The translations under genes and the position numbers were made by a program. A DNA stretch of 45,696 nucleotides from Oehlia diaphana. Its lineage: Eukaryota; Glomeromycota; Glomeromycetes; Glomerales; Glomeraceae. The DNA is taken from positions 6,958-52,653 of the forward strand of contig QZLH01000906.1 in NCBI GenBank assembly GCA_003833135.1, written 5' to 3'. Position 1 is the first letter of the stretch. Every line of letters starts with the position of its first letter. The notes below the pieces were generated by a model. It had not been told where the DNA came from. It worked only from the letters and a program-made list of their open reading frames with translations, and did no database searches. Of the stretch, positions 1 through 42,467 are shown in pieces.

Positions 1-3000
1 CCCATTACATTATGGAAAATATACAAGAGATTCAAATAAAGAAGTTGCTTTAAAATGTTTGCATAACTTACAAAATCCTGTTGATTCTCTAATAAATGAG
101 GTATAAATTTTACAAATTTTATTACATTTATTATTATATTTTATTAATTTTCTGTTTATGGTTTTAGGCTAAAAAATATTCAACAAAAAATGACAAGTTT
201 CTTGTATTATATGGAATATCACAAAATCCAGATACAAATGATTATATTTTAGTTCAAAATAATTCCATAAACTTAGTAAATTGGATGAGTGGAAATGAAA
301 AAATTGATGATTTCATTCAAGAAAGACAATTAAATATTAATTCTCATAATGATGTAATATTTGAATGGATACCCTACAATCAGTTTAATAAAATTAAAGA
401 AACAGGCAAAAATGGTTTTATAACTGTATATTCAGCAATATGGAAGAATGGTCCATTACACAAAAAGTATGGGTGGAGAAATAATTATACAAGAAATTCA
501 AATAAAAAAGTTACTTTAAAATGTTTGCATAACTTGCAAAATCCTGTTAATTCTTTAATAAATGAGGTATAAATTTCTATAAATATTATTACATTTATTA
601 TCTTTTTTATATAATGCTAATTTTCTGTTTATGATTATAGGCTAAAAAATATTCAACAGAAGAAGACAGGTTTCTTATATTATATGGAATATCACAAAAT
701 CCAGATACAAGTGATTATATTCTGGTTCAAAATTATTCCATAAACTTAGTAAATTGGATGAGTGGAAATGAAAAAATTGATGATTTCATTCAAGAAAGAC
801 AATTAAATATTAAATTCTATAATGATATATTATTTGAATGGATACCATACAAACAGTTTAATGAAATTAAAGAAACAAGCAAAAATGGTTTTATAACTGT
901 ATATTCAGCAATATGGAAGAATGGTCCATTACACAAAAATAATAGGTGGACAAGGGATTCAAATAAAGAAGTTGCTTTAAAATGTTTGCATAACTCGCAA
1001 AATCCTGTTGATTCTTTAATAAATGAGGTATAAATTTCTATAAATATTATAACTTTTATTATTTTTTTATATAATGCTAATTTTCTGTTTATGATTTTAG
1101 GCTAAAAAATATTCAACAGAAGAAGACGGGTTTCTTGTATTATATGGAATATCACAAAATCCAGACACAAGTGATTATATTATGGTTCAAAATAATTCCA
1201 TAAACTTAGTAAATTGGATGAGTGGAAATGAAACAATTGATAATTTCATTCAAGAAAAGCAATTAAAAATTAATGACCATAATAACATAGTGCTTGAATG
1301 GATACCATACAAACAGTTTAATGAAATTAAAGAAACAAGCAAAAATGGTTCTATAACTGTATATTCAGCAGTTTGGAAGAATGGCCCATTACATTATAGA
1401 AAATATACAAGAGATTCAAATAAAGAAGTTGCTTTAAAATGTTTGCATAACTTACAAAATCCTGTTGATTCTCTAATAAATGAGGTATAAATTTCTACAA
1501 ATATTATTATACTTATTATTATATTTGTTAATTTATTGTTTATGGTTTTAGGCTAAAAAATATTCAACGAAAAATGACAAGTTTCTTGTATTATATGGAA
1601 TATCACAAAATCCAAATACAAATGATTATATTTTAGTTCAAAATAATTCCATAAACTTAGTAAATTGGATGAGCAGAAATGAAAAAATTGATGATTTCAT
1701 TCAAGAAAGACAATTAGATATTAAATTCTATGATGATATATTATTTGAATGGATACCATACAATCAGTTTAATGAAATTAAAGAAACAGGCAAAAATGGT
1801 TCTATAACTGTATATTCAGCAATTTGGAAGAATGGCCCATTACATTATGGAAAATATACAAGAGATTCAAATAAAGAAGTTGCTTTAAAGTTTTTGCATA
1901 ACTTACAAAATCCTGTTGATTCTCTAATAAATGAGGTATAAATTTCTACAAATTTTATTACATTTATTATTATATTTTATTAATTTTCTGTTTATGGTTT
2001 TAGGCTAAAAAATATTCAACAAAAAATGACAATTTTCTTGTATTATATGGAATATCACAAAATCCAGATACAAATGATTATGTTTTAGTTCAAAATTATC
2101 TTATCCTGAATGGAAATGAAAAAATTGATAATTTCATTCAAGAAAGACAATTAAAAGTTAATTATTATGATTATGTAGCATTTGAATGGATACCATACAA
2201 TCAGTTTAATAAAATTGAAGTAGCAAGCAAAAATGGTTCTATAACTGTATATTCAGCAATTTGGAAGAATGGTCCATTACACAAAAATAATAGGTGGACA
2301 AGGGATACAAATAAAGAAGTTGCTTTAAAATGCTTGCATAACTTACAAAATCCTGTTGATTCTCTAATAAATGAGGTATAAATTTCTACAAATATTATTG
2401 CATTTATTATTATATTTAATAATTTTCTGTTTATGGTTTTAGGCTAAAAAATATTCAATAAAAAATGACAAGTTTCTTGTATTATATGGAATATCACAAA
2501 ATCCATAAACTTAGTAAATTGGATGAGTGGAAATGAAAAAATTGATGATTTCATTCAAGAAAGACAATTAAAAATTAATTACTATAATGATGTAGTATTT
2601 GAATGGATACCATTCAATCAGTTTAATGAAATTAAAGAAGCAGGCAATAATGGTTCTATAACTGTATATTCAGCAATATGGAAGAATGGCCCATTACATT
2701 ATAGAAAATATACAAGAGATTCAAATAAAGAAGTTGCTTTAAAATGTTTGCATAGCTTACAAAATCCTGTTGATTCTCTAATAAATGAGGTATAAATTTC
2801 TACAAATATTATTGCATTTATTATTATTTTGTTAATTTATTGTTTATGGTTTTAGACTAAAAAATATTCAACAGAAAATGACAAGTTTCTCGTATTATAT
2901 GGAATATCACAAAATCCAGATACAAATGATTATATTTTAGTTCAAAATAATTACATAAACTTAGTAAATTGGATGAGCAGAAATGAAAAAATTGATGATT

Positions 3001-6000
3001 TCATTCAAAATAGACAATTAAATATTAACTCCTATAATGATGATGTAGTATTTGAATGGATGCTATACAATCAGTTTAATAAAATTAAAGAAACAAGCAA
3101 AAATGGTTCTATAACTGTATATTCAGCAATATGGAAGAATGGTCCATTACACAAAAAGGATAGGAGGAATAATATTTATACAAGAGATTCAAATAAAGAA
3201 GTTGCTTTAAAATGTTTGCATAACTTACAAAATCCTGTTGATTCTCTAATAAATGAGGTATAAATTTCTATAAATGTTATTTCATTTATTATTATGTTTA
3301 TTTAATATAATTTTAATTTTCTGTTTATGGTTTTAGGCTAAAAAATATTCAACAAAAAATGGCAAGTTTCTTGTATTATATGGAATATCACAAAATCCAG
3401 ATACAAATGATTATATTTTAGTTCAAAATAATTCCATAAACTTAGTAAATTGGATTAGCGGAAATGATAAAATTGATGATTTCATTCAAGAAAGACAATT
3501 AAATATTAAATTCTATGATGATATATTATTTGAATGGATACCATACAATCAGTTTAGTGGAATTAAAGAAACAGGCAAAAATGGTTCTATAACTGTATCT
3601 TCAGCAATATGGAAGAATGGTCCATTACACAAAAAGGATAGGAGGAATAATATTTATACAAGAAATTCAAATAAAGAAGTTTTTTTAAAATGTTTGCATA
3701 ACATACAAAATCCTGTTGATTCTCTAATAAATGAGGTATAAATTTCTATAAATCTTGTTATACTTATTTTGTATTTTATTAATTTTCTGTTTATGGTTTT
3801 AGGCTAAAAAATATTCAATAAAAAATGACAAGTTTCTTGTATTATATGGAATATCCCAAAATCCAGATACAAATAATTATATTTTAGTTCAAAATTATCT
3901 TATCCTGAGTGGAAATGAAAAAATTGATGGTTATATTCAAGAAAGACAATTAAATATTAAATTCCATGATGATATATTATTTGAATGGATACCATACAAT
4001 CAGTTTAATGGAATTAAAGAAACAGGCAAAAATGGTTCTATAACCATATATTCAGCAATTTGGAAGGATGGTCCATTACACAAAGAGGATAGGAGGAATA
4101 ATATTTATACAAGAGATTCAAATAAAGAAGTTGCTTTAAAATGTTTGCATAACTTACAAAATCCTGTTGATTCTCTAATAAATGAGGTATAAATTTCTAA
4201 AAATTCTTGTTACATTTATTATTGTATTTTATTAATTTCTGTTTATGGTTTTAGGTTAAAAAATATTCAACAAAAAATGGCAAGTTTCTTGTATTATATG
4301 GAATATCCCAAAATCCAGATACAAATAATTATATTTTAGTTCAAAATTATCTTATCCTGAGTGGAAATGAAGAAATTGATGATTTCATTCAAGAAAGACA
4401 ATTAAATATTAAATCCTATAATGATGTATTATTTGAATGGATACCATACAATCAGTTTAATGAAATTAGAAAAACAGGCAAAAGTGGTTCTATAACTGTA
4501 TATACAGCAATATGGAAGAATGGTCCATTACACAAAGAGGATAAGGAGAGTAATAATTATACAAGAGATTCAAATAAAGAAGTTGCTTTAAAATGTTTGC
4601 ATAGCTTCCAAAATCCTGTTGATTCTCTAATAAATGAGGTATAAATTTCTACAAATATTATTACATTTATTATTATATTTTGTTAATTTATTGTTTATGG
4701 TTTTAGGCTAAAAAATATTCAACAAAAAATGACAAGTTTCTTGTATTATATGGAATATCCCAAAATCCAGTTACAAGTGATTATATTTTAGTTCTTACCT
4801 GGGCTAGTGGAAATGAAAAAATTGATAATTTCATTCAGAAAAAACAATTAATTATTAACTCCTATAATGATGATGTAGTATTTGAATGGATACCATACAA
4901 TCAGTTTAATGAAATTAAAGAAACAAGCAAAAATGGTTCTGTAACTGTATTTTCAGCAATATGGAAGGATGGTCCCAAAGAGTATCAGCGGAGAAATAGT
5001 AATTATACAAGAGATTCAAACAAAGAAGTTGCTTTAAAATGTTTGCATTACTTACAAAATCCTGTTGATTCTTTAATAAATGAGGTATAAATTTCTACAA
5101 ATATTGTTACATTTATTATTATATTTATTAATTTACTGTTTATTGTTTTTTTAGGCTATAAAATATTTAACAAAAAATGACAAGTTTCTTATATTATATG
5201 GAATATCACAAAATCCAGATACAAATGATTATATTTTAGTTCTTACCTGGACTAGTGGAAATGAAAAAATTGATGATTTTATTCAAGAAAGACAATTAAA
5301 AATTAATTACTATAATGATGTAGTATTTGAATGGATACCATACAATCAGTTTATTGAAATTAAAGAAACAGGTAAAAATGGTTCTATAACTGTACATTCA
5401 GCAATATGGAAGAATGGCCCATTACTTTATGATAACTTTAATAGTGTATATATAAGAGATTCAAATATTAAAGAAGTTGCTTTAAAATGTTTGCATAACT
5501 TACAAAATCCTGTTGATTCTCTAATAAATGAGGTATAAATTTCTATAAATATTGTTACAATTATTGTATTTGTTAATTTATTGTTTATGGTTTTAGGTTA
5601 AAAAATATTCAACAAAAAATGACAAGTTTCTTATATTATATGGAATATCACAAAATCCAGATACAAATGATTATATTTTAGTTCAAAATTATCTTATCCT
5701 AAGTGGAAATGAAACAATTGATGATTTCATTCAAGAAAGACAATTAAAAGTTAATTATTATGATTATGTAGCATTTGAATGTATACCATACAATCAGTTT
5801 AATAAAATTGAAGTAGCAGGCAAAAATGGTTCTATAACTGTATATTCAGCAATTTGGAAGAATGGTCCATTACACAAAAATAATAGGTGGACAAGGGATA
5901 CAAATAAAGAAGTTGCTTTAAAATGCTTGCATAACTTACAAAATCCTGTTGATTCTCTAATAAATGAGGTATAAATTCCTACAAATATTATTGCATTTAT

Positions 6001-6097
6001 TATTATATTTAATAATTTTCTGTTTATGGTTTTAGGCTAAAAAATATTCAATAAAAAATGACAAGTTTCTTGTATTATATGGAATATCACAAAATCC
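1..6097 (+). CDS. Tandem kinase N-lobe exon array, 5' and 3' incomplete
   Basis: Exons read in phase 0: 1-100 (partial), 168-566, 641-1027, 1101-1484, 1552-1935, 2004-2375, 2443-2789, 2856-3257, 3337-3735, 3803-4186, 4255-4638, 4707-5084, 5155-5532, 5597-5968, 6036-6097 (cut by the N). Each starts A/V/T-K/I-K-Y-S, gives a beta4-beta5-like stretch (LYGISQNPDTNDYILVQ), a linker (SGNEKIDDFIQERQL), then beta1-beta3 (WIPYNQFNEIK, KNGSITVYSAIW, EVALK) and ends in INE, the presumed alpha-C Glu. Introns (64-79 bp) start GTATAAAT and end in TTTAG or ATTATAG. All full exons except 2443-2789 are multiples of three and open. The ATP-lysine is kept, but the Gly-loop is degenerate (GxGxxG becomes [GS]KNG[SF]I). 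No catalytic loop is present in this piece. It resembles TKL kinases of Glomeromycotina. It may be part of the gene at 6551-10100 misplaced by assembly, or a truncated paralogue. Confidence 0.75.
2443..2789 (+). pseudogene. Frameshifted N-lobe exon (37-bp deletion)
   Basis: This exon is 347 nt, not a multiple of three. After the codons for GISQNP the sequence jumps to CATAAACTTAG. Compared with neighbouring units, 37 bp between two TCCA tetranucleotides are missing, which puts a TAA directly in frame. The downstream part (from ATG 2523) is otherwise intact. Skipping the exon would restore the frame because both flanking introns are phase 0. The breakpoint is at the same unit position as the assembly N at 6098, so a misjoin is a live alternative. 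Confidence 0.75.
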
Positions 6098-6098
6098 N
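6098..6098. other. Single N: probable contig join
   Basis: A lone N sits inside an N-lobe exon (started at 6036). The sequence changes abruptly from the array to unrelated promoter-like DNA. The break leaves the upstream exon truncated. It most likely marks a collapsed or filled assembly gap in the repeat. Confidence 0.8.
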
Positions 6099-6354
6099 GG
6101 TGTCTGGAATTTTATTTGCGTATTTTTTACAGGATTTTCATACTACTCATATAAAATGTCTCTGTGTACAGCCCATAATAAAAAAAAATTTTCGCCACCT
6201 GACCTCTATATATATATATTTCTGGATTAATATTTGTTACACTAATATTATATACAACTATAATCCTAAAAATATTTAAAATATTTCCTGATTTATTAAG
6301 AAAAGATTTTCAATAACGTAAATAGATTTACGTGTCACATTTCTATTAAATTCT

Positions 6355-6513
6355 CGACGTCACGCTGAATTTTAGTATTTATTATCCCCTGACCAGTCAT
6401 GTGACGTTGCGAAGAGCAGGGGGATTTGTTGCACAAATATTTTACATCACATTAATATTGTTATACGTGTAACCTTGCACATAAAAAATAAAAATTGCGC
6501 AAAGTTATAAATA
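6355..6513 (+). promoter_or_regulatory. Candidate promoter of the 6551 kinase gene
   Basis: CGACGTCACG (6355-6364) contains a CRE/ATF-like core, and TGACGT at 6402-6407 is a second half-site. The latter lies in the loop of an imperfect inverted repeat CCCCTG (6386-6391) / CAGGGG (6417-6422). A TATA-like TATAAATA lies at 6506-6513, about 40 bp before the ATG. Motif presence is seen; regulatory use is inferred. Confidence 0.4.
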
Positions 6514-6550
6514 AACTTTTGTTCTAAAATTTTTATTTGCTTTTGAAATA

Positions 6551-9500
6551 ATGTCTTCCCAAAATAAAGAAATTGAATATTCAGGAAATTCAAAATATTT
6601 AGAAGATAAATTTACAAATTGGGCCAGCGGGAATGAAAGAATTGATGCTTTCATTCAAAAAATGCAATCAAAAATCGATGACTCTGATAATAATACAGTA
6701 TTAGAATGGATACCATATAATCAGTTTGATCAAATTAAAGAAATAGACAGAAATGGCCTTATAACAGTGTATTCAACAATATGGGAAGTTGGCCCATTAT
6801 GTAAGAAAAATATACAAAATAAAAGTTATACAAGGCATTCAAATAAAAAAGTTGCTTTAAGATGTTTACATAATTTACAAAACCCCATAGAATTTGTGAT
6901 AAATGAGGTATAAAACTTTCATAAAATATTTTAATTATTTCTTTTACTATAGTATATTTATCTCTTTTATTCATATTTAGGTTAAAAAATATTCAACAGG
7001 AATATTTGGCAAAGAGATTATTAAAATATATGGAATATCTCAAAATCCAGACACAAACGATTATATTTTAGTAGTTCAAAAACATATTACCTGGATAAGT
7101 GCAAATGAAAAAATTGATGGTTTTATTCAAGAAATGCAATTAGAAATTAAAAACTATGATGACACAATATTAGAATGGATACCATACAATCAGTTTAATA
7201 AAATTAAAGAAATAAGCAAAAATGGTTCTATAACTGTATATTCAGCAATATGGAAGAATGGCCCATTACATTATGGAAAATATACAAGAGATTCAAATAA
7301 AGAAGTTGCTTTAAAATGTTTGCATAACTTACAAAATCCTGTTGATTCTCTAATAAATGAGGTATAAATTTTACAAATTTTATTACATTTATTATTATAT
7401 TTTATTAATTTTCTGTTTATGGTTTTAGGCTAAAAAATATTCAATAAAAAATGACAAGTTTCTTGTATTATATGGAATATCACAAAATCCAGATACAAAT
7501 GATTATATTTTAGTTCAAAATAATTCCATAAACTTAGTAAATTGGATGAGTGGAAATGAAAAAATTGATGATTTCATTCAAGAAAGACAATTAAAAATTA
7601 ATTACTATAATGATGTAGTATTTGAATGGATACCATACAATCAGTTTAATAAAATTAAAGAAGCAGGCAAAAATGGTTCTATAACTGTATATTCAGCAAT
7701 ATGGAAGAATGGCCCATTACATTATAGAAAATATACAAGAGTTTTAAATAAAGAAGTTGCTTTAAAATGTTTGCATAACTTACAAAATCCAGTTGATACT
7801 CTGATAAATGAGGTATAAATTTCTACAAATATTATTACATTTATTATTATATTTTGTTAATTTATTGTTTATGGTTTTAGGCTATAAAATATTCAACAAA
7901 AAATAACAGTTTTCTTGTATTATATGGAATATCACAAAATCCGGTTACAAATGATTATATTTTAGTTCAAAATAATTCCATAAACTTAGTAAATTGGATG
8001 AGTGGAAATGAAAAAATTGATGATTTGATTCAAGAAAGACAATTAAATATTAATTCCTATAATGATGTAGTATTTGAATGGATACCATACAATCAATTTA
8101 ATGAAATTAAAGAAATAGACAAAGATGATTTTATGATTGTATATTCAGCAATATGGAAAAATGGTCCATTACAATATCAGCATGATGATTATACAAGAGA
8201 TGCAAATAAAGAAGTTGCTCTGAAATGCTTACATAATTTACAAAACCCAATTGACTCTCTAATAAACGAGGTAAAAGAATTTTATAAATATTATTACATT
8301 TTTCAATAATAGTATTAATTTCTTGTTTATGGTTTAGGTTAAAAAATATTCAATAAAATATAATGTATTTCCTATATTGTATGGGATTTCTCAAAATCTA
8401 GATACAAATGATTATATTTTTGTTCAAAGACATATTGCCTGGATAAGTGGAAATGAAAAAATTGATGATTTTATAAAAGAGGTGCAATTGAAAACTAGTG
8501 ATATTGTACTTGAATGGGTACCATACAATCAGTTTTATAAAATTAAAGAAACAAGCAACAATGGTTTTGCAACAATATATTCAGCAATATGGGGAAAAGG
8601 TCCAATTGTTGATTTCTATAAGTATGAATATAGAAGAAATTCAAATGAAAATGTCTTCTTAAAACAATTGCATAATTCATACAATCTTACTCAATATGTA
8701 ATAAATGAGGTATAAAATTTACAAATTTTTTCAACTTTTAACATTGTACTAATTTCTTTATTAATATTTTAGGTTAAAAAATATTCAACAAGTAATAGTA
8801 GTTTTCTTGTAATATATGGGATTTCCCAAAATCCTGATACCAAAGATTATATATTAGTTCAAAATAAACCTATAAATCTAACTGGGAATGAAAAAATTGA
8901 CAATGCAATTCAAGAAATTCAATTAAAGATTTTAAAATATGATGATCTAATATTTGAATGGGTGCCATACAGTCAGTTTGATGAAATTAAGCAAATAGGA
9001 AAAGGTGGTTTTGCTACAATATATTCAGCAATATGGAAAGATGGTCCATTATATTTGGTAAGTCAGGATGAAAATTATAAAAGAGATTCATATAAAGAAG
9101 TTGCTTTAAAATGTTTAGAAAATTCACAAAATCACATTAATGAATTACTAAAAGAGGTATGAAATTTCTCTACTATACTATCTTTATAAATGTGATTTTG
9201 ATTTAACATTTTAACATTTTATATTTCATGTTTTAATAGGTCAAAGCATATTCAACTAAACCAACACATAGTAGTATTTTAAAAATATATGGAATATCTC
9301 AAGAGCCGGATACAAAAAATTATATTATTATTCTTCATTATGCAGCAGGTGGGAGTTTTGATAATTGGATAAATATAAATGAAAATTATAAATATTTTAA
9401 TTGGAAAAAGAAAATACAAACATTATTGTATATTGCTAGTGGCCTCAGAGAACTCCATGATGAGCAAATAGTACATCGTGATCTTCATATAAGAAATATA

Positions 9501-10100
9501 TTATTCAACAATCCTTCCATAAAGTCTAACATTAAAACATATATTTCAGATATGGGATTATGTGGAGAGATTGGTAATTTAGATAAAACAAAAATTTATG
9601 GAATTATTCCTTATGTGGCACCTGAAGTATTAAGAGGAAAACTTTACACTAAAGTTGCAGACATCTATAGCTTCGGTATGATTATGTATTTTGTAGCAAC
9701 TGGAAGACAACCTTTTGACGATCGAGCACATGATTGTTGTCTAACATTAGACATTTATAATGGAATTAGACCAGAAATAAATGAGCAAGCAGCACCAAGA
9801 TGTTATATTGACCTAATGAAAAAATGTTGGGATTCAAATCCAGAAAACAGACCTGATACAACAGAGTTGTCTAAATTACTTTCATCAATTTCTATGAATA
9901 ATCAATATAAGGCAGAAATTGAAGAAGCAGAAAAGTATAGAATTTTACATCTTTCTTCATCAAAAGTAGATAGACAAGTAAATACTACTCATCCTCAAGC
10001 TATTTATACATCTCGATTACTTAATCCTTTTACAGAAAATATTCCAAAGTATACTGATGATAATCCTGATAATTCTGAATGTTTAGATTGTGCAATCTAG
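6551..10100 (+). CDS. Multi-N-lobe TKL-type protein kinase, complete gene
   Basis: Exons 6551-6907, 6981-7361, 7429-7812, 7881-8270, 8338-8709, 8773-9156 and 9240-10100, all phase 0, predicted 1042 aa. The ATG at 6551 follows a TATA-like box. Exons 1-6 each carry the linker helix plus beta1-beta3 and the alpha-C start; exons 2-6 begin with beta4-beta5. Only exon 6 has a near-canonical Gly-loop (GKGGFATIY, about residues 704-712), with VALK Lys at about 741 and alpha-C Glu at 756. Exon 7 gives the C-lobe: HRDLHIRN (H about 835, Asp 837), SDMGL in place of DFG (Asp about 860), APE at 883-885, then CWDSNPENRPD and a polar tail to TAG. Exon 1 has VALR, so its ATP-lysine is Arg. Expected to be a Ser/Thr or dual-specificity kinase. 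Whether the extra N-lobes fold is unknown. Neighbour: the same exon type continues upstream of the N. Confidence 0.8.
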
Positions 10101-10712: not shown

Positions 10713-12760
10713 AAATTGGAAGCAATAGTAAATTAAGATGTGATTTTAAAATATTACAGGTCGGCTAAATAACAAAATTATCACAATATTAATGTATGCA
10801 TGCAAATGAGAATCAAATAATAAAGAAGTTATCATTAATATTCAACCTCAATAAAATTATATAAACACATGATATCATTATTAATTTATCGAGTAATAAT
10901 ATAAGAAATAATGTATTCACCGCACCCTGCGTTACAAATTTATATATATTTTTATGTTTATCATTTGCCATTTTAAGGGAGGTGCGGTGTATAAACTAAT
11001 TAAATCATTGCCTTTGGTAGAACAAGTTTAATTCAATATTATTAATCATATCAACTGTTGTAGCTTATTGAAATAATTTAAAAACATAACCTTTTTAAAT
11101 TCATGTTGAATTATGGATTAAACGTTAAATTAATTTAATTTATTCCTCATAATTCAATATTTTATTATTAGACTATTATGCTAAATAATCACGCACCTTA
11201 ACCTTTTTTATTTTTAATATCACGTTTTTAAAGTTATGTATGACCTTTCTGGTGATGATCAGTTTCAAGTCAGTTGATCAAAAGTGCTTAAATATAGTTA
11301 TATTATACTTTTAGCTTATATTAAGAAAGCCTGAATTGCATTTGAATGTATATTAAACTTATTATAAATGGCTTGTTCAGACTACTTGAAGTATATCATT
11401 ATTTCATGTCACAGTTTTATGTAAATAGTGTATACAAAATTTGTAATTTTAACATTTACCGCCTGATCTTCAATTAATAAGTTGAAGATATATACTTTAT
11501 ACATATAATATACTATAATATTTCATTCAATTTCTCATTTCTTTTTATTTTGTTTTTTTTTTCATTTTATATTTTATTATTTCATCATTTTTTTTTATTA
11601 TATTTTTATCATTTAATTTTTAATCAAATTAGTAAAGAATAGTTATATAGTATATAAAAATAGATAAAAGTATATCACTTGATTTATAACATTTTTACTC
11701 TCAACTTTTATTTTGATTTTTTTTTTAAATAGTTAAAAAGCCATCAAAATTTTCTTATTTGTAAACAAAATTGGTTTTGATTTTTTTCAATTTTCTCGTG
11801 TTCAACTGACTATCCATTAATGAATGGAATTTTTTTTTTTTTGAAAAATCGATGAAATTAAATTTATTCAGAAATAAATAACCACTTTTAATGCATGATA
11901 TTATGATATTATTAAGATAAAGATTTTATACATTTGTTTATTAAAGTAATATGCTACGTCAGGCGTCAGCTACGAGGCCTTAATCCCATTTACTGCTCTC
12001 ATATGTTAGAAGTGATCTTAACCGCTCATAAACAATTCTTTTAATCTTTTTTTTACTGTAATTTTCTTTAATAATATAATACGATCATGATTCATGAACC
12101 AATATTGCAAAACCTTCTATATCATTAATGCACTAATCATATATAATTAATTTTCACATATATAATCAAAGTGATCAGACATACTGATATTAACAATAAA
12201 TATTTAGTTATACGAGAATAACTTTGGTATTAATATTAAAAAGTTATTAAATTCTCAATATTGAAAAAATTTTTTTTTTTATTTAAATTCAATGAAAAAT
12301 AGAGAAATATCCTGCATAAGTTCACTCCGATATTAGACTTGTATACATCAGACATTGGTTATTATATATAACTATATATGACTCAAGTACGTCCATCCAT
12401 CATAATAAAATATTTAAATACTAAGGAAATGTAAAAGTAAATAAATGATAACAAAATATATTTCGCTAAACAAGTTAAAGTTGTAGAGAATTTTCATTCG
12501 ATATGTAAATTGTGACTTGTGAGACACACTGACACAGTTATGTTTAATATGTTTATAGAATGTGTGTAAAATGGCGCCTAAAAAAAATTTTTTACCCCAG
12601 TTTAACGTGACACGTCAGATAAAAGAAATTCCCCAATTTCCATTTTTTACTATTTTTCGTAAAAATATAAAGTCCATTGTTTCATTGCTCATTTTTATTA
12701 ATAAAACATTCAGTTAAATATTATGAAACGACTCGGCGAATTAAACGTTTGTTGGAGAAT
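10713..12760. other. AT-rich intergenic region
   Basis: No gene recognised. Long T and A runs and simple AT sequence (11500-11640, 11820-11850). A small foldback at 10919-10990 is listed separately. 12545-12670 is somewhat less AT-rich but has no coherent reading frame. Confidence 0.5.
10919..10990. repeat. Small hairpin repeat, MITE-like
   Basis: CACCGCACC at the left and GGTGCGGTG at the right are perfect 9-bp inverted arms around an AT-rich centre, flanked by TATT and TATA. Size and structure fit a miniature inverted-repeat element. The family is unknown. Confidence 0.45.
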
Positions 12761-12950
12761 TACCTGTCAGCTAAAAAATGTTTGTCAGTGAAGTGATTGC
12801 CAGTGAAAGTAACTTGTCAGCGAAGCGAACCAACCTCGTAGTAATCATTACTCGTGATCGGTAATTATAGTTGCAACTCACCATCATTTCACCGACAATT
12901 ATTTGAACAACAATCATTTACAATCATTTAACCGACAGGTACATTACACC
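12761..12950. repeat. TGTCAGTGAA-type short repeat cluster
   Basis: Degenerate repeats of TGTCAGYGAAGYG (12764-12830) are followed by the same motif inverted (TTTCACCGACA, 12888-12898; TTTAACCGACAGG, 12927-12939). The motif is shared with the tandem array at 14312-14440, so both may be ends of one foldback element with another repeat nested inside. A 66-codon open frame here (from 12903) overlaps the repeat and is not considered a gene. Confidence 0.45.
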
Positions 12951-13412
12951 GTTAATCAAATTACTGACAATTATATCTATTTCCTTTTTGTAAATGGGAA
13001 TTATTTTTTTTTCTCCATGGGAAAATTTGACAAGCAATCTAAAGTATATGACAGTATCCAATTAAGAAATTCACGTACACAATCCAATAGATCAGATGTA
13101 TAAATATCAAATAATCCCTTAAATTACGTCAATATTAACTAATTTTTTTCAGTGTTTAATATTTTACACAATATGAAATAATATTATTGTATAACACAAT
13201 GCAAAATACTTACTTTTTAAATGAAGCCACAATTTAATTTATATAAAAGGAAATTGTATTATTTTGTACGCAATCAATAATGATTAATTTCTTATCTCTT
13301 TTCTTCATGTTCAGATGATACTCATTTGTTTATGGATAGCATAGTAAATAACTAATAACTTGTTTGTAATTTGATTGTCGGTATGATGTACATGTACCTG
13401 TCATTAAAGGTG

Positions 13413-15094: not shown

Positions 15095-15694
15095 TCAACA
15101 TTTAAGTAAATAATCAATTGTTTGTTCCAACATTTTAATATATTCTCGATCATTAAGTGCATGTGAGGAATTAAAATTTAAAGAACTTACTAGGGAAGTG
15201 TCAGTTGAACCGACACTAGGATAATTCACTTTACTACTATCAAGTTGAATTTCAACATGTTCTTTATTTTCTTTTTCTGTGCAAAAATCCATGTAATTGC
15301 TTTTTTGATTATTTTCAGCATAATTATTCATATGTTTATCTAGAACAATTTGAATGTTATTCTGCTTATAAATTGATTTCGCATCTTTAACTAGCGATTC
15401 ATAAAAATCTTTTACGTTCTTTGGTTCCATATTCCAAGAACTCTTAGCGATTTTGGAAACTTTACCTATAGGAGGTATTTTACACTTTTTAATACGATAT
15501 TCTTTCATTAACGCCATTCTATATACGATAAAAGCGTTTGGAACCAATTTTGGTTTATTATTTGTGTTGGAGTTTTTGATTAATTCATCAATCGTCAAGG
15601 TCGGAGGGAAAGATGGCTTGATATCAATGAGATTATTGTTGGGGTTGTCGATATTGCGTTTGCGAATTTTTTGTTTTAAAGAAGTTTTGGGCAT
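15095..15694 (-). CDS. MATA-HMG box transcription factor
   Basis: Intronless 199-aa frame on the minus strand, ATG at 15694, TGA at 15095-15097. A basic N-terminus (KQKIRKR, residues 7-13) could act as a nuclear localisation signal. Residues about 52-112 form an HMG box of the MATA type: PNAFIVYRMA, then KIPPIGKVSKIAKSSWN, then FYESLVKDAK. The rest is Asn/Ser-rich and probably disordered. Such proteins bind DNA in the nucleus. The family is strongly expanded in arbuscular mycorrhizal fungi and is related to mating-type regulators. Nothing here shows a mating role. No broken residues seen. Length and ends look normal. Confidence 0.88.
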   Translation of the reverse strand: MPKTSLKQKIRKRNIDNPNNNLIDIKPSFPPTLTIDELIKNSNTNNKPKLVPNAFIVYRMALMKEYRIKKCKIPPIGKVSKIAKSSWNMEPKNVKDFYESLVKDAKSIYKQNNIQIVLDKHMNNYAENNQKSNYMDFCTEKENKEHVEIQLDSSKVNYPSVGSTDTSLVSSLNFNSSHALNDREYIKMLEQTIDYLLKC

Positions 15695-15701
15695 AATGTA
15701 A

Positions 15702-16410
15702 TATAATAAAAAAAAAATAGAGAATTTTTCATATACGTATACATAAAAAAGAAATCGAAGTCTTGAAGTAACTAAAACGCGCTTTTATATTATAAGTTCT
15801 GAAGCCCAAATTTCAATTGAAAATTATAAATCCCGTCAGTCAATAAAAGAAAGCTAACTTTGTAACGTTACTCGAATTTATTGTTTCAGAAACGAATTTT
15901 CATTTAAATATTATCAGAAATTTTTAAAAATAACCAAATAAATTATATTACAAAGATTATTGGCACATTGTGTTAATCTTTAAATTCTGATTCGCCGACT
16001 ATAGGATGTGGCTATGTGATGAAACAACTACCTTCTATTAAAAATTTTATATAAAGAGGATGTGGCTGAAAATCACATACTAGATACTGTGTTTCCTAAT
16101 GGGTCTAACTTTTCCCATAGTCTCGGCACACATTACACTAGTCATTTTATGTCACTGATCGGCGAACATGTATTAATGCTTAACCAATAGGATCATCTCA
16201 CCGACATTTATTTATAGTAATAAATAAATTTTCTTTTCTAAAGTAATGGCATCATATTTTTATTACCGCATGACATACAGGACACAGCCACATTTATTTT
16301 TATAGGTAAATGGCGTAATGCAATACGTAAAATTTATAATTATATATTATCAATCTTTTTTCATTAAGATTATCATTTCATTTTTTTCTAAATGGATATT
16401 TGCGATAGAG
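15702..16410. other. Intergenic, with GATGTGGCT repeats
   Basis: Upstream flank of the HMG gene. GGATGTGGCT occurs near 16005 and 16060, and the complementary AGCCACAT near 16287. This suggests an old inverted-repeat element at roughly 16046-16295. No gene seen. Confidence 0.35.
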
Positions 16411-29775: not shown

Positions 29776-30354
29776 NNNNNNNNNNNNNNNNNNNNNNNNN
29801 NNNNNNNNNNNNNNNNNNNNNNNNNNNNNNNNNNNNNNNNNNNNNNNNNNNNNNNNNNNNNNNNNNNNNNNNNNNNNNNNNNNNNNNNNNNNNNNNNNNN
29901 NNNNNNNNNNNNNNNNNNNNNNNNNNNNNNNNNNNNNNNNNNNNNNNNNNNNNNNNNNNNNNNNNNNNNNNNNNNNNNNNNNNNNNNNNNNNNNNNNNNN
30001 NNNNNNNNNNNNNNNNNNNNNNNNNNNNNNNNNNNNNNNNNNNNNNNNNNNNNNNNNNNNNNNNNNNNNNNNNNNNNNNNNNNNNNNNNNNNNNNNNNNN
30101 NNNNNNNNNNNNNNNNNNNNNNNNNNNNNNNNNNNNNNNNNNNNNNNNNNNNNNNNNNNNNNNNNNNNNNNNNNNNNNNNNNNNNNNNNNNNNNNNNNNN
30201 NNNNNNNNNNNNNNNNNNNNNNNNNNNNNNNNNNNNNNNNNNNNNNNNNNNNNNNNNNNNNNNNNNNNNNNNNNNNNNNNNNNNNNNNNNNNNNNNNNNN
30301 NNNNNNNNNNNNNNNNNNNNNNNNNNNNNNNNNNNNNNNNNNNNNNNNNNNNNN
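29776..30354. other. Assembly gap (Ns) within poly(A)
   Basis: 579 Ns with adenine runs on both sides (14 left, about 74 right). The true gap content is probably only more A and possibly much shorter than drawn. Confidence 0.9.
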
Positions 30355-34492: not shown

Positions 34493-36021
34493 ATGTCATA
34501 TAAATTTGAATCTGAAGTTTTGAAAGCAATTGAAAAATTACTTAAAACTGAGGCTAATTATGATGTTATCATTCATGTCGGGAAGAAACCTGATAATAAA
34601 GAATTTCACGCACATTCTGGTTTTCTATGTTGTAGATCCAATTATTTTAATTCGATCATTTCTGCAAAAGATACTATTAAAAAAGATGGAAAATATATAA
34701 TTAATATACCAAATATTACTCCTCAAGCTTTCGATGTTATTATCACGTAACTATACAGTATATTAATACTAAATAATAAAAATATCAAAATTTTATTTAT
34801 ATTATTTTAATATTTTTTTTTCTTTATTCAAATTATAAATATAGGTATTTTTATACTGGACATATTAATATGACAAATAAAACTGATGTTGAAATTTTAA
34901 ACATGATGACCGCTTTTGACGATTTAAAATTGAACCAATTAATTAAACTTGCCGAAATTTTTCTTACTAAACATGATCATCAAAATTTCTTACAAAATGA
35001 TCCGATTGAAATTCTTTAAATGGTTCATTCTCATAAAATCTTTAATAATAAAATAAAAGATTTTTGTTTAAAAATTATTTCCTCAAAACCTAATATTTTA
35101 TTTAACTCTGTTAAGTTTCCTAATTTACCTTCTCATCTATTGGAGATTATCTTGAAAAAAGATGATTTAGTTTTAGATGAAATTGAAATTTGGGAAAATT
35201 TAGTTAAATGGGGATTAGCAAAAGACAAAATTCTTGATAATGACGTTTCTAAGTGGAATCAAGAAAAATTTAATATTTTTGAAAGAATCCTTCATAAACT
35301 TATACCATTAATTAGATTTCATGATATATCTTCAGAAGATTATTTCAATAAAGTTAGACCTTATGAACAAATTTTATCTAAAGAATTACGAGAAGATATC
35401 TTAAAATTTCATATGGTTCCTGGATATAAACTTACATTCAATAAATATCCAAAAAGATGTTCAAAAAGTAATATTGATTCTTCATTAATTAATATAGAAC
35501 ATATTACACTTTTTGCAAATTGGATTGAAAGAAAAGATAATTACAAGTATAATAATAATATACCTTATGAATTTAATCTTATTTTACGTGGTAGTCGGGA
35601 TGGTTTTGATCCTAAATCATTTCATAATAAATGTGATAACAAAGGAGCAATTATTACAATTATAAAAATTAAAAATTCGAATCAGATAGTTGGTGGATAT
35701 AATCCCTTTGATTGGAGTGGACTAAGCATTAATTGTACTCCAGATAGTTTTATATTTTCATTTAATGATAATAGAAATGTTGATTCAGGTATAATTAGTA
35801 GACCAATTAAAAACCTTAATAGTGTTGTAATAAGTGATCCAGATTGGGGACCAGTATTTGGAGCATATACAAGTATTGAAGTTAGTCATGATTTATGTAT
35901 GCAACGAAATGGTCAATGGAGTTCTTATCCAAGTTCTTACACTGATATTAATATTCCAAAAAAATATTTTGATATTGTTGATTATGAAGTGTTTCAAGTC
36001 AAAAAAAGTATTACTACTTAA
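34493..36021 (+). pseudogene. BTB-BACK-TLDc gene with one nonsense codon
   Basis: Exon 1, 34493-34746, starts MSYKFESEVLKAIEKLLKTE and gives a BTB domain (YDVIIHVG, FHAHSGFLCCRSNYF). A 98-bp GT-AG intron (34747-34844) ends ATATAG. Exon 2 resumes YFYTGHINM, continues through BACK (WENLVKWGLAKD) and a C-terminal TLDc domain (LFANWIERKD, FNLILRGSRDGF, VGGYNPFDWSG), and ends at TAA 36021. The frame is interrupted once, by TAA at 35017-35019 after DPIEIL, giving 142 aa before and 333 aa after. Read through, it would be about 476 positions. BTB-BACK proteins usually serve as Cullin-3 adaptors; the TLDc combination is abundant in Rhizophagus. A single substitution, a sequencing error, readthrough or reinitiation at ATG 35020 are all possible. 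Confidence 0.8.
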
Positions 36022-40241: not shown

Positions 40242-42467
40242 TTAATTACCATCAGGAAGTTCAAATTCATTTTGTTCTTCTGAATGGAAATTTGGATTAT
40301 TATATATTTCATCTTCATCTATAAAAATAAAAATTAGAGTAAAAAAGACCAAATATAAAATTAATCAATTATTATTAATATAAGTTAGATATTTTACATA
40401 CCATCAAAGTTATTATCATTTTTCTTTACTTTTTGTTGCATTGTTTCCTCTTTATAATTATTTTGGATATCTAGAAAAAATTTAAATAAAATTATGTTTT
40501 ATATTAAATAATTAAATTAATATAATGATTATTATTCTTTTTACTTGCAATTCTCTGAATCTCCTTTAAATATTTTGGATAACTTTTTGCTACCAACTAA
40601 ATAATTCATATAAATTAATATTTATATATTTGATTATTTTAATATAAGAAAAATATATTATACCTTTAAATATGCTACTTAATTTTGATATACTATTCTT
40701 CTGATTATTCACTTTATCAAAATCATCAACTAATAAAATTAAAATAGATAAATAAAATGTTTTATTTGTAGCATTAAATATGAAACCAATAACACTTACT
40801 ATTATTAGGAATATTAAAATAAAGTGGTTTACTATGAAATGCTATAAAATTTATTATAGTAAATAATTAAATATTTAATAATATTTATTTATATAAAGTA
40901 AATAAACTTAAAAGTAATTCATACCTTCTAATTCTTCTATTGATTAAATTAATAAATAAGATATCAATTTATAAAATATATTAATAATTTTTTATATATT
41001 TATTAAAAGATTTTAATTAATATAATACCTTCTGTTGCATTTCTGGGTTCAGGAAGATTGTCAAATTGATGAAGTTTGCTTGCAAATAAACTACTGCTAC
41101 TACTTGTATAATTTTCTGAACTATTCATATCTAAACTATCATTTTCTTCTAGTTGAATTAAATCGTTTGATTTAGTTTGATAAAATAAATTAATTTGATT
41201 TATCTTCCACCTAAGTGTACCAATATCAGGCCGTTTTAATGGATCAGCATCCCAACATTGCTTCATTAGATTTTTGTATTCTAAAGGAGTTCCTGGTACA
41301 ATTTTTGGTCTAGTGCCATTAACAATATTCATAGCAAGATCATAATTATGCTCATAATTAATAAATGGTGGTTGTCCAGATGAAATTTCCCACATAAGTA
41401 TTGCAATACCATAAATATCAGATTTATAAGTCTGTTCTTTTCCAATAATAACTTCAGGTGCTATATAAGGAAGATTTCCATATATACTTTTTAATGGTTT
41501 ATCTGCAGGCCCACAAAATCCAAGATCACTAATACTAAAGTAAATCTTAAATAATACATTTCCAGAATGCAAATCTCTATGAATTGCATTCTCATCATGA
41601 ATTCTTGACAGTGCATCAATTATATCAACAGCAATTTGAATTCTTTCTTTCCATGTGAGTTTTTTATGATTTTGTTGTAAATATTTTGTTAAATCTATAT
41701 TCATTCTATTCATTACAAGTATATAATTTCCATCTGATGGATCCTGTGTTAAACCAAAACATTGGACGATTGAATTCCACTTATTGCTTATATATAAATG
41801 TGATTTAGCCTTTAAATGAAAAAATGGTTAAATTTGAAAATATTACAAACTTTTAAATATTTAGATTATTACAAACCTCTTCAAACCAACTTTGATTTGC
41901 ATTTTCAACATTTTCTAATTTTTTAAGTACTATAATAAGATTTCCAAATCTCTTTAATTGTTGTTTTTTAGAATCCCATTCATCATATCTTCCATTAATC
42001 CATGTTGCTGTATAAATTTCTGAAAATCCACCTTTTGTTAGATATTTAATATCTTTAAAACTATTATATGGGATCCATTCTACTATTCCATTTGTTGCAA
42101 GTGTTTTCATTTGACATTCTTGTATTACATTATCAATATCATTATTTCCAGATGTCCAATTTGAAAATTTTGCTTTTAAATAATTTCGAACACAAAGTTC
42201 ACAAAATAATGTAGCTAAGCATTCTTGGTTACAATTTTCACAAATTCTTTTAGTTCCTTCATTAAAACAAAGTTTATCTTTATCATTAATTTTAATTAAT
42301 ATTATTATTGCATCAGATTTCTCATTCTCTGTAAGTGATTCATCAGCAAGAATTGTTTGTTTTCTAAATTCATATTGTTTATGTACATCATCATAAATAT
42401 TATAATCCGTTAATGCATATGCCCTATTAATTGCAGCATTAACTGATTGATTATCACCAAAAGACAT
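40242..42467 (-). CDS. TKL-type protein kinase with Cys-rich N-terminus
   Basis: Eight exons on the minus strand: 41877-42467, 41029-41809, 40925-40936, 40800-40841, 40664-40729, 40545-40589, 40402-40470, 40242-40318; predicted 560 aa. Residues 76-92 hold C-x2-C-x3-C-x5-C-x2-C, a possible zinc-binding ribbon. The N-lobe begins WIPYNSF (131); its loop is TKGGFSEIY (first Gly is Thr144); the ATP-lysine is probably K182 in VLKKL. The first intron lies right after the presumed alpha-C Glu (E197), phase 0, as in the array at 1-10100. The C-lobe has HRDLHSGN (H274, D276), SDLGF (D292), APE (314-316) and CWDADPLKRPD. The tail is encoded by mini-exons of 12-69 nt, all phase 1-1, ending in an acidic segment (FHSEEQNEFELPDGN). 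Splice sites were chosen to keep the frame. The exon 6 acceptor could alternatively lie a few bases upstream, but only the chosen one preserves phase. Confidence 0.85.

Follow-up and report, generated by a model that had tools for sequence, protein, structure and literature searches.

In pseudokinase-kinase tandems such as JAK JH2-JH1 and Gcn2, a non-catalytic part derived from a kinase lies ahead of an active kinase domain; in such tandems, this part comprises both lobes of a domain and is usually single. Obscurin/titin-type giants use the kinase fold as a scaffold within a modular protein, the repeats of which are Ig/Fn3 domains. Fungal NLRs with near-identical repeats show locally similar repeats, a variable copy number and an effector at one end, and mutually exclusive exon arrays (Dscam) place tandem interchangeable exons, which are functional equivalents, before a constant exon. 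The pseudokinase domain of Gcn2 is reported to stimulate its kinase (PMC4014428), and scaffolding properties have been described for the pseudokinase PK1 of obscurin (PMC10129394). Here, a stretch of 45,696 nucleotides from the glomeromycete Oehlia diaphana (assembly GCA_003833135.1, contig QZLH01000906.1, positions 6,958 to 52,653 of the forward strand; the whole stretch is called the window below) was analysed, in which exons encoding the amino-terminal lobe (N-lobe) of a kinase are repeated in tandem and a complete gene carries six such lobes ahead of one carboxy-terminal lobe (C-lobe).

As in the pseudokinase-kinase tandems, a non-catalytic kinase-derived part is predicted to precede an active kinase domain, but here half domains are repeated; the window gene has one C-lobe, and a C-lobe before an N-lobe was found in none of 148 listed database proteins. 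A scaffolding use of the kinase fold, comparable to that in obscurin/titin-type giants, is proposed below for the array, whose repeats, unlike theirs, are kinase N-lobes. The repeat pattern with a terminal effector is also that of fungal NLRs, although the repeats are half kinase domains, and neither NACHT nor NB-ARC was among the Pfam matches of the 1,042-residue product of the window gene. Tandem interchangeable exons before a constant exon are shared with Dscam. Ordinary Rhizophagus-type tyrosine-kinase-like (TKL) kinases (PF07714) have in common with the array the helix and N-lobe, the phase-0 intron after the alpha-C glutamate and the kind of C-lobe; they possess a single N-lobe behind a zinc-ribbon-like stretch, whereas all 148 listed array proteins contain 4-19 N-lobes.

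Passages of four papers (PMC4219462, PMC10234402, PMC6123716, PMC8778642) describe expanded genes with tyrosine-kinase-like or protein tyrosine kinase domains and MLKL-like Sel1 proteins in Glomeromycotina, and 2,533 kinase genes have been reported for R. irregularis (PMC10234402). No description of N-lobe arrays was found in the literature searched, which included these passages and had most subscription papers outside its reach. Array proteins are already present in databases; it is the architecture itself for which no description was found.

With a probability of roughly 45%, the five N-lobes without an intact glycine-rich adenosine triphosphate (ATP) loop would form a multivalent docking arm, bringing partners to the one complete kinase behind them and tuning it. 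This proposal is based on the observation that residues of the ATP pocket are lost from internal lobes but retained in the lobe beside the C-lobe, and that the core residues persist in the internal lobes as well.

Structure of the array and the complete gene

Tandem Repeats Finder reported a period of 451 with 5.5 copies over 1-2505 and a period of 452 with 14.5 copies over 2524-9116. The 20 acceptors and 20 donors of the array are all in register, all 20 introns (63-83 bp) have the form GT...TAG, and the unit exons are all phase 0, with one common intron position just 3' of the alpha-C glutamate. Length is divisible by 3 in 17 of 18 full unit exons, though these 17 span 372-402 bp, and the chance of an open 128-codon frame at the base composition of the window is p ~7e-6. 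The array is real and far above chance expectation.

The complete gene (6551-10100, +) has seven intact exons, a predicted product of 1,042 residues, six N-lobe fronts and one C-lobe:

6551-6907 (+): exon 1, with ATG, helix, first N-lobe front and degenerate ATP loop DRNGLITVY; first exons at other loci begin alike
6981-7361 (+): unit exon 2, N-lobe, degenerate ATP loop
7429-7812 (+): unit exon 3, N-lobe, degenerate ATP loop
7881-8270 (+): unit exon 4, N-lobe, degenerate ATP loop
8338-8709 (+): unit exon 5, N-lobe, degenerate ATP loop
8773-9156 (+): unit exon 6, terminal N-lobe front with GKGGFATIY and VALK; on its own, it matches PF07714 only weakly (E 0.016, positions 4-50)
9240-10100 (+): last exon, alpha-C end, beta4-beta5 and the sole C-lobe (HRD, DMG, APE), stop included; PF07714 E 4e-34

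An earlier note, made from the sequence letters, had proposed six N-lobes and only one catalytic C-lobe for this gene. Both proposals agree with the seven-exon frame and with the Pfam result, a single kinase domain (PF07714) at residues 700-968, which comprises the terminal N-lobe from 8773-9156 and the C-lobe exon and covers 4-256 of 258 model positions with 147 bits (cut-off 23.1). The last exon had been described as the C-lobe; this is right, and the exon also carries the end of alpha-C and beta4-beta5. The motifs of the catalytic unit are complete (GKGGF, VALK and LLKE in 8773-9156; HRD, DMG and APE in 9240-10100), and by score and motifs the predicted product contains the kinase domain of a TKL-type protein kinase (PF07714). 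Five degenerate ATP loops are followed by GKGGFATIY in the sixth. Among the matches listed, the closest proteins are those of Rhizophagus and Glomus cerebriforme. The end of the encoded protein (9990-10097) is a tail, HPQAIYTSRLLNPFTE...ECLDCAI, and much the same tail occurs in several aligned relatives, including some models without a C-lobe.

Upstream, about 14 N-lobe units had been counted before the N. In detail, there are instead a partial exon (2-100), 13 unit exons (168-5968), one of them frame-broken, and a 62-bp stub (6036-6097):

1-100 (+): partial unit exon, bases 2-100 in frame, starting before the window; donor GTATAA
168-566 (+): unit exon with alpha-C end, beta4-beta5, linker/helix, beta1-beta3 and alpha-C start; open, phase 0, AG/GT
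641-1027 (+): unit exon, open frame and splice sites, as in all the following unless stated
1101-1484 (+): unit exon
1552-1935 (+): unit exon
2004-2375 (+): unit exon, inside a 98%-identical 499-bp stretch
2443-2789 (+): broken unit exon (347 bp), frame lost through a 37-bp deletion
2856-3257 (+): unit exon
3337-3735 (+): unit exon
3803-4186 (+): unit exon
4255-4638 (+): unit exon
4707-5084 (+): unit exon
5155-5532 (+): unit exon
5597-5968 (+): unit exon, in the second copy of the 499-bp stretch
6036-6097 (+): unit exon stub, cut by N at 6098

The broken exon runs into a stop after its deletion. The upstream array is flanked by N at both sides (a single-base N at 6098, and N on the contig before the window). 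Moreover, 2004-2505 and 5597-6097 are 98% identical over 499 bp, intron included, and the second copy stops at the N; this duplicate is either a higher-order repeat or an assembly break within the array.

Terminal and internal lobes

Lobes were aligned as segments of 70-220 residues from the listed database proteins. The second and third glycines of the ATP loop are present together in 104 of 111 lobes adjoining a C-lobe, in 14 of 1,055 internal lobes and in none of 136 first lobes. Twelve of these 14 internal lobes end the lobe row in proteins for which no C-lobe was detected, and one of the 7 terminal lobes lacking the pair is clipped by the alignment. Therefore, the exons are not each competent, as those of a mutually exclusive array would be. 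The same difference between terminal and internal lobes was observed by species: 35/37 versus 0/303 in R. clarus, 68/73 versus 14/747 in R. irregularis, and 1/1 versus 0/5 in G. cerebriforme.

The beta3 lysine is found in 107 of 108 terminal and 910 of 1,038 internal lobes, and the alpha-C glutamate in 107 of 110 and 800 of 1,026, respectively; in internal lobes, the two are lost together above expectation (odds ratio 2.7). Four columns have a commonest residue in at least 93% of terminal and less than 65% of internal lobes, namely the third glycine, the loop phenylalanine, the VAIK alanine and the gatekeeper (by eye). The second glycine falls outside this filter, as internal lobes mostly share asparagine there. 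On the other hand, 28 core columns are conserved in terminal and internal lobes alike.

Terminal lobes are 63% identical to the terminal lobes of other proteins versus 55% to the internal lobes of their own protein, and the nearest neighbour of a terminal lobe is another terminal lobe in 102 of 111 cases. Internal units are 69% identical within one protein and 57% between proteins. Internal lobes are conserved in sequence and, judged by motif, not ATP-competent. Their lost ATP-loop glycines favour a non-catalytic role over alternative catalytic cassettes.

Selection and indels

The ratio of nonsynonymous to synonymous rates (omega) was estimated with a neutral spectrum from the window introns, using ungapped columns of 64 of 68 called exons (three of the ribbon-bearing contig C6 and one of C412 were left out), with a bootstrap over columns that ignores relatedness. 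Omega was 0.64 (0.54-0.76) between contigs or strands and 0.70 (0.59-0.83) within them. In 32 of 120 ungapped columns, the nonsynonymous rate is less than a quarter of the synonymous rate, and three ungapped columns of the beta2-beta3 loop have ratios of 2.7-3.2. Of the gap intervals, 13 of 16 in exons and 5 of 18 in introns are divisible by 3; lengths of the multi-locus exon calls, which were made in three-base steps, are not counted as frame evidence. The mean distance is 0.19 for introns versus 0.15 for exons. The suggestion that the lobes are made as protein is supported as far as coding is concerned, by frame-keeping indels and by omega below 1, and other assemblies contain predicted proteins with this layout.

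Occurrence in the genome and in databases

The genome of the fungus was searched in its 108.8-Mb assembly. For the unit, 150 of 2,218 candidate places were scored, and 150 of 2,253 for a second query (a ribbon-bearing unit), and 136 C-lobe places were scored after dropping 8 short fragments from 144 rows. The first 150 unit places form 30 chains, of which 20 have a C-lobe downstream and none has a C-lobe in the 2 kb upstream, a comparison that used 37 of the 136 C-lobe places. With all 300 unit places and all 136 C-lobe places, at least 53 C-lobes are preceded by two or more unit exons and at least 68 by one or more; among the last 24 C-lobe rows, mostly more distant C-lobes, 1 has upstream units. 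Motif counts in the genome were 490 for the N-lobe and 44 for this type of C-lobe (0 for both in the reversed control), implying that kinase counts from the motif of one lobe can mislead, although the two patterns are of unequal sensitivity and the N-lobe pattern may also match ordinary kinases.

In two database searches, the top word-sharing candidates were scored, 576 and 335 of them passed, and the best 120 of each gave the 148 distinct proteins. By name, R. irregularis accounts for 105 of them, R. clarus for 42 and Glomus cerebriforme for 1, so that the search of other Glomeromycotina for repeated N-lobes that had been recommended recovered the same architecture in three species; no genera beyond Rhizophagus and Glomus occurred among the matches listed. 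A C-lobe is present in 113 of the 148, with HxD, DxG and xPE all found in 89 of these 113, and zinc-ribbon-like stretches stand ahead of at least two lobes in 47 of the 148. Database names such as Ste11p or Rad53p on array proteins should not be read as function. Among 30 listed OCT59-tagged R. irregularis array proteins, 24 share a single contig of 4.92 Mb, and 23 of these 24 carry tags 008295-008672, so that the genes look clustered. The OCT59 models may come from the Nanopore-cDNA-refined annotation of PMC10234402.

An ordinary kinase and the proposed origin of the unit

Read against kinase motifs, a unit exon begins with the last part of alpha-C, continues with beta4-beta5, a helix-bearing linker and beta1-beta3, and closes with the first part of alpha-C. 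Also present in the window is an ordinary two-exon TKL-type kinase (42467-41003, -), consisting of a zinc-ribbon-like stretch, one N-lobe and a C-lobe:

41877-42467 (-): exon 1, zinc-ribbon-like CxxC pairs, helix and N-lobe front (KGGFSEIY), ending ...WFEE
41003-41809 (-): exon 2, alpha-C end, beta4-beta5 and C-lobe; intron position and phase shared with the array

Its intron (67 bp, phase 0) lies just after the alpha-C glutamates, in position and phase as in the array. The unit aligns with the last part of exon 1 at 42% identity (E 1e-17) and with the beginning of exon 2 at 33% (E 4e-5), both E values being those of a small comparison. Because of these two matches, the array resembles an ordinary two-exon kinase with extra fused exons at the position of its intron. 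Splicing in one unit exon keeps the frame and adds one N-lobe. The layout of the ordinary kinase is likely to be the ancestral one. The first unit may have arisen by head-to-tail fusion with loss of one C-lobe, and unequal crossing-over could then have multiplied it.

Possible functions of the array

Three readings of the array rank highest: docking of partners first, a recognition array second and neutral growth third. According to the docking proposal, each internal lobe would be a folded bead that binds proteins, the simplest candidates being kinases that possess this N-lobe themselves; side-to-side contacts of N-lobes are a known mode of mutual regulation among TKL kinases. The number of lobes would determine the number of partners gathered, and the last lobe with the C-lobe would be the active kinase.

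Several observations weigh against such an arm. When a profile of 14 internal lobes was compared with solved structures, the top two chains were unrelated (E 0.003 and 0.014, taken as chance), and the only kinase was a Src-Abl ancestor with E = 1. In the 12 closest unit pairs, omega is 0.84-0.92 (range 0.53-1.42), leaving constraint on recent copies unsupported. Besides the broken copy at 2443-2789, internal stops occur in 1 of 150 unit matches of the first query and 8 of 150 of the ribbon-bearing query, and C-lobe matches contain stops in 8 of 144 rows. The C-lobe is split over two frames on contig C453, and no C-lobe was found downstream of the array on contig C550 up to the contig end. Among database gene models with C-lobes at least 93% identical, the number of lobes differs in 16 of 20 pairs. 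Finally, on contig C905 the first exon and nine units are followed by half a unit and then at once by a 499-residue open reading frame (11461-12957, -) that is not a C-lobe. Polymorphism in lobe number was not taken from the 16 pairs, being indistinguishable from annotation differences, and giant open frames near units (8,834 and 6,312 residues) were rejected as runs of N.

A recognition array is the strongest of the alternatives, albeit an unlikely one. In this view, the lobes would be a rapidly evolving surface that senses non-self, host or partner molecules, and signalling would be left to the C-terminal domain as effector, an arrangement like that of fungal receptors made of near-identical repeats. 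Nonsynonymous change at about three times the synonymous rate in the three beta2-beta3 loop columns, with the core kept, points in this direction, and so does the greater identity of internal units within than between proteins; however, the loop is rich in indels, and alignment error can raise its rate. The open reading frame on C905 would represent an effector swap. It appears peptidase-like by eye (NYHV and GDSG motifs) and has no starting methionine. No significant Pfam match (MRPL52, E 0.13; Nal1_C, E 0.14) and no PDB match were obtained, and a search limited to proteins of ~1,000-3,200 residues contained no protein joining an array to such a frame. A paralogue on C338 (49% identity) appears, by eye, to be located behind other coding stretches. 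Joining of the arm to another effector is thus hinted at by a single locus, for which the splice was guessed and the motifs were identified by eye. In its broadest form, the reading would make the half kinase domain a repeat module of a new class in Rhizophagus-type fungi: 4-19 N-lobes in a row, with only the last not ATP-dead by motif, would serve as recognition arms that are remodelled quickly and are connected to one effector, in most cases a kinase and at one locus perhaps peptidase-like; this generalization is speculative and rather improbable.

Neutral exon amplification, in which symmetric phase-0 exons multiply by unequal crossing-over and are harmlessly spliced, with no function except sparing the last lobe, is doubtful. 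It would fit the closest unit pairs, whose omega is not distinct from 1, the 499-bp stretch repeated at 98%, the broken unit of the upstream array and the unit matches with stops elsewhere. However, the overall omega values have upper bounds of 0.76 and 0.83 (within the limits of a bootstrap ignoring relatedness), 32 columns have a nonsynonymous rate well below the synonymous one, the 28 core columns are kept in internal lobes, and the same layout occurs in three species.

It is very unlikely that the units are splice-choice cassettes, each transcript joining one N-lobe exon to the C-lobe exon to yield many kinase variants. The window unit exons are indeed interchangeable in phase, and the 16 model pairs differing in lobe number could be read in this way, but internal lobes without an ATP loop would yield dead kinases. 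Introns of only 63-83 bp that are more diverged than the exons give no sign of conserved splice-control sequence, and in the pair P0079/P0025, parts of lobes are missing from one of the two models, apparently because the annotations differ. An assembly error or a decaying pseudogene, which the N at 6098, the N before the window, the one broken unit and the arrays on C830 and C1133 that stop at a run of N or the contig end might suggest, is hardly credible given the intact seven-exon gene and the layout shared by gene models from assemblies of three species.

Implications

The array genes are one kinase subfamily that differs from a mere increase in kinases, as a half domain is repeated before one catalytic end, with ATP-pocket residues lost and the core kept. 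If the proposed docking arms bind proteins, a regulated kinase would have been built in a new way, and the arms would add a new class to the known repeat proteins. If they were recognition arms, some of the thousands of kinases in these symbionts would constitute a recognition system made from kinase parts.

Other features of the window

Scans of the window for tRNA and Rfam families gave no matches. A run of N with poly-A/poly-T-like edges lies at 29776-30354. An open reading frame at 15095-15784 (-) has an HMG-box match just below the Pfam cut-off, and another at 35020-36021 (+) contains a TLDc domain (E 2e-14) together with a BACK match just below the cut-off.

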